A program made the translations under genes and the position numbers. Below the pieces are notes generated by a model, which saw only the letters and a list, made by a program, of their open reading frames with translations, was not told where the DNA came from and ran no database searches. Below are positions 22,260 through 23,307 of a stretch of 32,147 nt of DNA, in pieces (position 1 is the first letter of the stretch; every line of letters begins with the position of its first letter). This DNA comes from an uncultured Bacteroidia bacterium (GTDB lineage: Bacteria; Bacteroidota; Bacteroidia; Bacteroidales; Prolixibacteraceae), in NCBI GenBank assembly GCA_903927965.1, contig CAIYPA010000206.1:1-32147 (forward strand). The letters run 5' to 3'.

Positions 22260-23090
22260 TTATTTCTTATCGATTTGCTTTTTCTCTTTTGCTGGAGGTA
22301 GAAAGTTTTCACCTGTCACAACGCTTTTGCCTGTTTTTGATTCAAGTTCTTTACGGGCGTTTTTTGCTACCGCACCACCTTTTTTTCCTGCGACGGCATT
22401 CTCAGGCAAACCTTTGGCTTGATCTGCTTCTGCGATTTGACGAGTAGAAATTTCTGCTAATGCGGTGAAAATCAGCTCAGCTTCGCTCATATGGTCACGA
22501 AGATTCTGGGTTTTTAAGCCTTTTAAGTCTTTGTGCTTTTTTACAGTTAAACCTGTCCATTCTTCATGGATGATATTGGTCAGCATGGCAAATTCATCCC
22601 GCTCTTTGATTCCAGCATCTTTCCAATAATCGGTCAATTTATTGCGGGTTTCCTGACCTGTCATGCGTTGTTGAATCCACTTTTCGCTCCGGCCAAGTTT
22701 TTGCCAGTTTTCCCTTGCCCTATCGAGGCATTGGGCAGGATCGGCTATTTCCTGCATTCGTTCATAACCTACTTTTGCCAACCATTGTTTGAAGGGTTCA
22801 GCTTTTGGAGAGGGTATCGCCTGGATGATTCGCAATAACCCTTGTACATTGGAACAATCAGTTGCATACTTTTTCCCATCAGCAGATTCCAGTTTCAGTT
22901 GTCGACAAATTGTCGACAACTCAATGCCCGACAATTTCTCTCTTTTTTTAATCCTATACCAGTAATCCTTTGGATCGGGACTCTCTGATAAAATTCCAAC
23001 AACATCAATCACAGAGAAATACCATTGTTCTTCTTTTTCATCCCAGTAACTTCGAACTTTTCTATTTTCAAATAATTTAATGTTATTCAT
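22260..23090 (-). CDS. DinD/Bro-N family protein (antirepressor-like)
   Basis: This 276-aa protein has nearly the length of E. coli DinD. It has an N-terminal Bro-N domain (about 1-110, WYFSVIDVVGILSESPDPKDYW, QLKLESADGKKYATD), the family stretch IPSPKAEPFKQWLAKVGYER and a C-terminal GLPENAVAGKKGGAVAKNAR. Bro-N proteins occur in phages as antirepressors, and DinD is an SOS-induced protein that acts on RecA filaments in vitro; which role applies here is open. Codons 57-65 hold a perfect 25-bp inverted repeat (22897-22921). It sits inside the redox run, so it may be an insertion. Confidence 0.88.
   Translation of the reverse strand: MNNIKLFENRKVRSYWDEKEEQWYFSVIDVVGILSESPDPKDYWYRIKKREKLSGIELSTICRQLKLESADGKKYATDCSNVQGLLRIIQAIPSPKAEPFKQWLAKVGYERMQEIADPAQCLDRARENWQKLGRSEKWIQQRMTGQETRNKLTDYWKDAGIKERDEFAMLTNIIHEEWTGLTVKKHKDLKGLKTQNLRDHMSEAELIFTALAEISTRQIAEADQAKGLPENAVAGKKGGAVAKNARKELESKTGKSVVTGENFLPPAKEKKQIDKK
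22897..22921. repeat. 25-bp perfect inverted repeat inside the DinD-like gene
   Basis: AGTTGTCGACAA (22897-22908) and TTGTCGACAACT (22910-22921) are exact inverse copies with a 1-nt centre. The repeat begins at the second base of codon 57 and covers ELSTICRQL. Confidence 0.9.
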
Positions 23091-23100
23091 AGGATTTGGG

Positions 23101-23307
23101 TTATATTTTAATAAATATTGAAATATCCGTTTCCCTCATTTTGCCATCATCTGCTTTCATTTTCAACTGTCCCAATCTTTGGGACAGTTCACTGCCTTCA
23201 GCTATAAGTTTTGATTTTAAGGCGCTCCAATATTTTCGAGGCCTTGGACTTTCGGTTAGAATCTCAATAACATTAATTACCGAAAAATACCATTTTTCAT
23301 TTTTCAT
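23101..23307 (-). pseudogene. Truncated Bro-N paralogue (N-terminal domain only)
   Basis: The 68-aa frame (MKNEKWYFSVINVIEILTES) matches residues about 22-77 of the DinD-like protein encoded 10 nt downstream, then ends early (ETDISIFIKI). It lacks the first 20 or so residues and everything after the Bro-N core. Its ATG overlaps the end of the FAD oxidoreductase gene by 11 nt. It is most likely a remnant of a tandem duplication, though short Bro-N-only proteins exist and it could still be made. It keeps a palindrome at the same codons as the full-length copy. Confidence 0.6.
23165..23189. repeat. 25-bp perfect inverted repeat inside the truncated Bro-N gene
   Basis: AACTGTCCCAA (23165-23175) and TTGGGACAGTT (23179-23189) are exact inverse copies with a 3-nt centre. 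The repeat begins at the second base of codon 40, which aligns with codon 57 of the full-length paralogue, and covers ELSQRLGQL. Confidence 0.9.

Follow-up and report, generated by a model that had tools for sequence, protein, structure and literature searches.

Why should two neighbouring paralogous genes carry different perfect palindromes at the same codons? This question is raised by a DNA of 32,147 nt (the window, meaning the whole stretch that was analysed) from an uncultured Bacteroidia bacterium of the Prolixibacteraceae (GCA_903927965.1, contig CAIYPA010000206.1). An earlier note on this DNA had proposed that each palindrome is selected at the nucleotide level while its sequence diversifies. 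The features concerned are the following.

22260..23090, minus strand: gene A (P0001), Bro-N/DinD-like, 276 aa, contains palindrome A
22851..23000, minus strand: approximate exchangeable specificity segment (helix, wing and palindrome), about codons 30-80 of P0001, projected
22897..22921, no strand assigned: palindrome A, AGTTGTCGACAA-A-TTGTCGACAACT as written on the plus strand, codons 57-65 of P0001, exact
22932..22973, minus strand: codons 40-53 of P0001, a helix whose residues 42, 45, 46 and 49 covary with the palindrome (from model secondary structure and covariation)
23101..23307, minus strand: gene B (P0002), a truncated paralogue, N-terminal part with palindrome B, 68 aa
23165..23189, no strand assigned: palindrome B, AACTGTCCCAA-TCT-TTGGGACAGTT as written on the plus strand, codons 40-48 of P0002, exact

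The borders of the exchangeable segment in P0001 were projected from the sliding identity between orthologous loci of other genomes.

We observed that both palindromes are exact and start, as had been described, at the second base of aligned codons (57 in P0001 and 40 in P0002). The centre of palindrome A is the second base of I61, and that of palindrome B is the second base of the P0002 codon matching I61. The encoded residues differ in the paired manner claimed before, L-S-T-I-C-R-Q for A and L-S-Q-R-L-G-Q for B. P0002 ends 20 codons past its palindrome; its region is a tblastn match to residues 19-80 of P0001, and it matches phrog_15286. This remnant, with a palindrome of its own, lies just upstream of a complete gene whose palindrome differs, and the DNA upstream of L038 (genome G228) resembles a similar remnant that ends near the same codons. 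P0001 also has a second half-site-like inverted match (22904-22915 with 22929-22940; 12 nt, 92%, arms 13 nt apart), which overlaps palindrome A.

P0001 meets the requirement for Bro-N membership, scoring 41.4 bits with PF02498 against a gathering cut-off of 25.6, and no Bro-N match was obtained for P0002 in the profile search. With the DinD equivalog NF008573, P0001 gave only a weak match in its C-terminal half (21 bits against a cut-off of 242, not met); by these profile scores it is a relative, not a member, of the DinD equivalog family. The PADLOC profile PDC-S13 matches P0001 with an E value of 7e-124, and a PDC-S13 model likewise matches E. coli DinD (2e-121). PDC-S13 is a candidate label, and phage protection by such genes is putative. 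Eight neighbouring or nearby proteins of the window were scanned: three gave matches to FAD-dependent oxidoreductases, four others, one each, to a histidine kinase, an AAA ATPase, 4Fe-4S ferredoxin domains and a heparinase-like domain, and the last had no match; prophage surroundings are not evident.

Of 140 genomes of the same family, 64 had relatives of P0001 (up to 15 matches in a single genome), and within the order such relatives were detected in 136 of 295. Similarity to P0001 guided the choice of loci, and the scan of named genomes took the best 80 of at least 573 relatives. These 80 loci carry the labels of Bacteroidota, Pseudomonadota, Verrucomicrobia, Planctomycetota, Patescibacteria groups, Gastranaerophilales, two archaeal bins and others; the records are mostly metagenome bins, so single taxon labels may be wrong. 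Further relatives came from viral contigs (56 loci), phages (4 records) and plasmids (13 records).

Is the palindrome a constant property of these genes? We collected 356 distinct sites without any palindrome filter, and in 350 of them at least 8 of the ten arm pairs k3-k12 were complementary within 6 nt of the homologous centre (all ten in 184, nine in 87, eight in 79, seven in 5 and five in 1), as against 15 of 1665 control places in the same genes reaching this level. A palindrome filter would remove three of the 356 (L151, L164 and L362), all of which have some palindrome. Most of the code and covariation statistics given below come from 367 palindrome-filtered copies, some of them duplicated between collections; 334 of these pass a frame check (centre on the middle codon base). 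The 33 that fail were left out of the code and are mostly in another codon phase, e.g. CCAAAGGGTGGGTACAA.TTGTACCCACCCTTTGG, while at least four more likely carry an insertion. The 334 copies show 31 half-site types. The best palindrome of the entire gene lies at the homologous place in 277 of 306 full-length genes, with 18 ties and 11 failures; in L431 it is elsewhere in the gene, and for short-arm copies the single-gene score is often not above its own codon-shuffled maximum.

The palindrome also extends beyond the close relatives. All 21 sequences of a sibling family (32-41% identity to P0001) have 8-10 of the ten pairs complementary at the homologous centre. Classical dinD relatives carry palindromes at the motif DHF..V.(K/E)MV, where, among 32 distinct sites, 23-32 show pairing at each position 1.5-13.5 nt from the centre; some are exact palindromes of 30-32 bp (e.g. 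L423 and L449). In E. coli K-12, dinD has TGACCATTTCGAGGAGATCCTCGATATGGTCA at the equivalent motif, with 14 of 16 pairs formed, and in a second E. coli allele 4 of 14 positions do not pair. The palindrome at the motif is weak in Streptococcus dinD and absent from Thiothrix dinD, and another dinD relative, L418, scores low. In dinD of a Zymomonas plasmid (L473), the codons for KVFPQTGKNP, which come a few codons after the HF motif, contain a palindrome, GGTTTTTCCCC-AAAC-GGGGAAAAACC. Three of three Bro-N genes of the phage-antirepressor type (L409-L411) showed no palindrome beyond shuffles. The earlier note would have been refuted if other Bro-N genes lacked the repeat; this is the case for these three antirepressor-type genes and not for the DinD-like Bro-N genes. 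Judged from its distribution, the coding palindrome is old in this superfamily. None of the open-access papers surveyed, judged mainly by title and abstract, appeared to describe a coding palindrome in Bro-N or dinD genes; most subscription papers lie outside this survey, so such a description may exist.

We then asked how much symmetry the proteins alone would impose. When codons were shuffled with the protein fixed and pooled synonymous usage, 6.02 of the 10 pairs were expected, against 9.23 observed over 181 distinct sites, and all ten pairs were complementary in 88 of these sites. The excess was largest for k5 (180 observed, 53 expected, of 181), k7 (176 and 65) and k8 (169 and 61), and was also found for k11 (175 and 85) and k10 (128 and 62). 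The weaker pairs are k9 and k10, complementary in 127 and 128 of the 181 sites, respectively. In a set of 330 sequences that includes a few duplicates, pair k5 is complementary in 329 and occurs as all four pair types, with at least 32 parsimony changes; k4 is complementary in 329 (17 changes) and k11 in 321 (32 changes). The residue pairs at -2/+2 were compatible with reverse complementarity in 97.8%, against 33% when permuted.

The choice of synonymous codons gives the same picture. At sites reading Val-(Thr/Ser)-x-Cys, the valine codon followed the residue four codons on in 147 of 147 cases, GTT going with Asn (77), GTG with His (58), GTC with Asp (7) and GTA with Tyr (5), a rule that involves at least 13 changes on the tree. 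Without restriction to the motif, it held in 126 of 127, the exception being GTT with Thr. The covariation check that had been recommended, a many-gene alignment at this site, thus yielded paired, symmetry-keeping changes, and the codon shuffle, the k5 changes and the valine codons strongly support the proposal that the palindrome is under selection while it diversifies. These alignments demonstrate, at the level of sequence comparison, that DNA-level symmetry is selected and kept through paired changes.

The earlier note had also supposed that the segment possibly codes for part of a DNA-contacting surface and serves as an operator as well, and this gained support from the predicted fold and from a putative recognition-helix code, the operator role itself being inferred. 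The AlphaFold2 model of P0001 (mean pLDDT 89) has helices at 27-35 and 40-53 and strands at 62-68 and 74-80; by our own reading of this model, the N-terminal layout is that of a winged helix, in which the residues encoded by the palindrome follow helix 40-53 and reach into the first wing strand. Information about the half-site peaks at residues 42 (2.09 bits), 45 (1.77), 46 (1.72) and 49 (1.64), whose spacing is that of one helix face, against at most 0.78 bits for residues 38, 52, 53, 76 and 84 of similar entropy. Where two copies have C-terminal bodies no more than 70% identical but differ at two or fewer of residues 40-56, they have the same half-site in 67-89% of cases, as compared with 9-15% when the control residues 84-100 are used. 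From residue 46 alone the inner triplet follows correctly in 90.7% of 334 copies, against a baseline of 36%, and the pairings of this residue recur across different outer triplets (V-TAC with 6, K-GAC with 7 and D-CGA with 5); the inferred code is in this sense modular.

In a held-out test with 201 training copies and 122 other copies after duplicate removal, residues 42, 45 and 46 predicted the exact half-site in 81 of 96 copies whose code had been seen in training; the code of the remaining 26 of 122 was absent from training. Before duplicate removal, the score was 87 of 103. Other residue triples gave 23/112, 20/104 and 7/32, the nearest C-terminal body 13/122, and the nearest N-domain outside the helix and palindrome 32/122. 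In a strict set, where every test copy had less than 75% identity to all the training copies, the three residues gave 68 of 78 exact predictions, against 14/93, 12/84 and 4/21 for control triples, 7/101 for the C-terminal body and 22/101 for the N-domain outside the helix and palindrome. In the surveyed code, the P0001 residues D42, Y45 and R46 are paired with GTCGAC. P0002 has K, S and A at the matching positions, and its half-site GTCCCA agrees with the code table, where KSA goes with GTCCCA in 7 of 8 copies, a set to which P0002 does not belong. That the specificity of the protein matches its site is met by coevolution only.

Genes at the same locus, recognised by homologous flanks, may differ in their palindromes even where their C-terminal bodies are 98-99% identical (e.g. 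L088, L094 and L107). In such swapped comparisons, nucleotide identity was mostly high before nt ~90, fell to ~40-75% between ~90 and ~240 and was high again afterwards, most clearly for L107 against L088 and L094, L008 against L013 and L071 against L108. The palindrome centre, near nt 182, is inside the exchanged segment and not at its edges. These allele comparisons demonstrate that a putative specificity segment of ~150 bp, with both helix and palindrome, has been exchanged as a block.

A related pattern was observed in E. coli, where K-12 dinD was matched in 4668 of 5426 genomes, 1526 of them over at least 80% of the gene. Among the E. coli matches listed, 10 of 20 match K-12 dinD only from nt 247 on, and all five of those ten that we compared carry one other N-terminal segment. 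Its identity to K-12 is 43-60% from nt 30 to nt 240, and the sequence ahead of it is 97% identical. The same segment is present in L470 and in the frameshifted L482. E. coli dinD (L439:5761-6585, L470, L477-L484) occurs as at least two natural alleles, which differ through exchange of the N-terminal DNA-binding segment (nt ~30-245); elsewhere in the gene, 30-nt windows are about 83-100% identical. Flank homology between genomes often ends near the gene ends (L001, L008, L009 and L037), as if each gene moved by itself. The compared copies showed no conserved terminal motif within 60 nt upstream or 90 nt downstream. L018 has a near-identical direct repeat of ~22 nt, TTTTGGTAT[A/G]GAAAATTCAAAC, just upstream and downstream of the gene, possibly the trace of an insertion.

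If each protein recognises its own palindrome, do copies in one genome share it? We compared 228 copies from 105 genomes, which do not include every listed match and leave out P0002. The same 10-nt arm was shared by 2 of 250 within-genome pairs, against 11.3 expected (permutation p 0.0004), and with body identity matched, by 1 of 221 pairs, against 9.2 expected (p 0.0007). For the 7-nt core there were 9 sharing pairs against 17.3 expected (p 0.018), and 8 against 14.5 when body-matched. The two same-arm pairs are in genomes G092 and G094, and in each one copy is listed with internal stops. Twenty-five loci had been brought in by palindrome pattern, a bias that works against the result.

Second sites were sought both in genomes and near the gene start. 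Allowing up to 3 mismatches, the 21-nt core of palindrome A is unique in its whole genome, and palindrome B, allowing up to 2, is matched nowhere else there; at 3 mismatches, palindrome B has five genome matches, the same as the 5 of its backward control. The idea of the palindrome as an address elsewhere in the genome was rejected on these counts. In 140 genomes, the sequence GTGACRAATTGTCAC occurs at 25 places, of which 16 are in such genes, 4 in gene remnants that keep the gene context (L307, L308, L317 and L322) and 5 elsewhere without long arms (L313, L315, L320, L321 and L326, the last in the window's own genome); its backward control has 4 places among the matches listed. A second operator upstream was likewise dismissed, with little signal near the start of 359 copies: full-length matches occurred in 4 of them, and the own half-site in 29, against 17 ± 4 when shuffled, partly in gene remnants.

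From the above we consider it very likely that the protein binds its own palindrome, an inference made without binding data. The encoded protein would bind as a dimer to a site sitting in the codons that follow its recognition helix; physical binding, the dimer mode and repression are all inferred, whereas the coevolution of the palindrome with one helix face and the rarity of shared arms within genomes are demonstrated. As the helix, the wing and the site share one segment of ~150 bp, recombination could exchange specificity while keeping protein and site together, and every copy would retain a private address. The most likely use would be self-control of the gene, with the palindrome as an intragenic operator acting via roadblock or looping; this use is preferred because no second site was found in the window's genome for palindromes A and B at the mismatch levels used. 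Self-control would also keep co-resident paralogues from acting on each other, and self-repression would explain why copies avoid a shared arm. What is expected of an autoregulator, a palindromic site in the gene under DNA-level selection, is met. We put the probability that the protein binds the site inside its own gene and thereby controls itself at roughly 0.6; binding is strongly inferred, regulation is inferred, and there are no expression data. Against self-control, operators do not usually lie as deep as ~180 nt inside a gene, and next to no matching sites were found near the gene start.

Several known systems share parts of this arrangement. The intragenic operators lac O2 in lacZ and gal OI in galE are palindromes inside coding regions at which a DNA-binding protein acts, but they lie in another gene, neither coding for nor changing together with the DNA-binding domain of the regulator. 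A parS site lies inside spo0J, the ParB gene of Bacillus subtilis, so that there too the palindromic site of a protein is within its own gene; parS, however, is one nearly constant motif with copies elsewhere, whereas the sites of the Bro-N/DinD-like genes are of many half-site types and lie in the codons of the DNA-binding domain. A parS-like role would call for a conserved motif with several copies per genome, and this is not met by A and B, each found once at the mismatch levels used. HsdS of type I restriction exchanges target-recognition domains, and its target sites occur genome-wide; the likeness is the exchange of a specificity segment as a block in a conserved gene, the difference that the coding segment which HsdS exchanges does not itself contain the targets. 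Plain E. coli DinD (L439) is matched over residues 8-269 by the PADLOC model Specificity_I (PDLC03083), with an E value of 3e-114, so that DinD proteins may be annotated by this model as specificity subunits of type I restriction systems.

A structural relative is DdrC of Deinococcus radiodurans, a DNA-damage-response DNA-binding protein. Its structures (PDB 8u0g, 7udi and 7qvb) are the best match to the predicted fold of P0001, although identity is only 13-17%; a shared fold seems to be present, and weak profile hits (E 0.10-0.15) agree. The parts consulted of a paper on DdrC (PMC5436757) do not mention DinD or a winged helix. DinD itself is an SOS protein of E. coli that inhibits RecA strand exchange and postsynaptic RecA filaments (Uranga 2011, as cited in the portions seen of PMC4849656 and PMC4129442). 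Its likeness to P0001 consists of the weak C-terminal match and the equivalent coding palindrome; in dinD, however, the palindrome centre falls between bases, and the arm sequences differ from those of the P0001 family. Mitochondrial genes of Nematomorpha also have coding palindromes, inverted repeats under joint protein and nucleotide constraint, according to the parts consulted of PMC6649704; these repeats are far longer (up to 284 bp) and lie in respiratory genes, and binding by the encoded protein is not proposed in those parts.

Which other explanations could produce such repeats? Protein conservation with codon bias alone accounts for k3, k9 and k12, which show almost no excess over the codon shuffle, but k5, k7, k8 and k11 are far above expectation and the valine codons obey their rule without exception at the motif, so this explanation is already refuted. 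A mutational process is a reading already disfavoured, and we give it hardly any credence: template-switch correction of quasi-palindromes makes concerted changes on both arms and could keep them alike without function, but it leaves unexplained the held-out code, the rarity of shared arms within genomes and the persistence at the same codons across phyla and in the sibling family. It is improbable, too, that an mRNA hairpin controlling translation or stability is the selected object. Palindrome A does fold as a strong RNA hairpin (z -2.83), and RNA pairing would also yield paired changes. However, an RNA helix would tolerate G.U, and among 134 arm types the sense-strand mismatches were G.T in 33 and A.C in 30 (160 were of other kinds, mainly at k2, k10 and k13); with the two so similar in frequency, the sense mRNA is not favoured as the selected object. 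A sense-strand wobble excess disappeared when counted over arm types, except at k2, next to the centre, where all wobble mismatches are G.T (7 arm types, none with A.C). The dinD genes of the KTI type break one pair by an A.C mismatch, and an RNA hairpin needs no covariation with the face of a predicted DNA-recognition helix. The mismatch pattern speaks for DNA rather than mRNA.

That the palindrome serves recombination or mobility, as a site for exchanging the N-terminal segment, had been suggested as well. The segment is indeed exchanged in place, and flank homology mostly ends at the gene ends in the copies compared; the exchange boundaries, however, flank the palindrome at a distance, close to nt 90 and nt 240 of the gene, the arms vary over their length, and swapped alleles have different palindromes. 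With 31 half-sites, what a recombination site would require is not met, and we regard this guess as very improbable and do not retain it. A less remote though still unlikely alternative accepts binding to the own palindrome without self-regulation, either as an identity or nucleation mark (parS-like, or with nucleoid or DNA-damage binding like that of DdrC) or in a phage-defence gene diversifying against outside targets. In its favour, DdrC of Deinococcus was the only Foldseek match in the PDB with E ≤0.001 (best 3e-7), and the family matches the candidate PDC-S13 and reaches up to 15 matches per genome; the DdrC relationship and this label leave room for other uses of the same binding. On the other hand, no second host site was found for A when 3 mismatches were allowed, nor for B with 2, and in the one scan of viral contigs the exact core of palindrome A was found in a single contig (that of L250), inside such a gene.

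Self-control through an intragenic site therefore remains the reading that we prefer. It can be extended to an evolvable private repressor, in which the DNA coding for the recognition surface would itself be the DNA recognised, specificity would be swappable by segment, residues 42, 45 and 46 would specify six bases, the superfamily including E. coli dinD would share the principle, and copies with the same palindrome would exclude each other like incompatibility groups; to this full version we give even odds. For the Bro-N/DinD genes, with PDC-S13 and E. coli dinD, the finding would provide a common and poorly understood family with a concrete DNA target and a predicted code. It offers a clear case of a protein with amino acids dictated by the symmetry of the DNA that encodes it, and illustrates how a regulator and its operator could be exchanged together and so stay in step.
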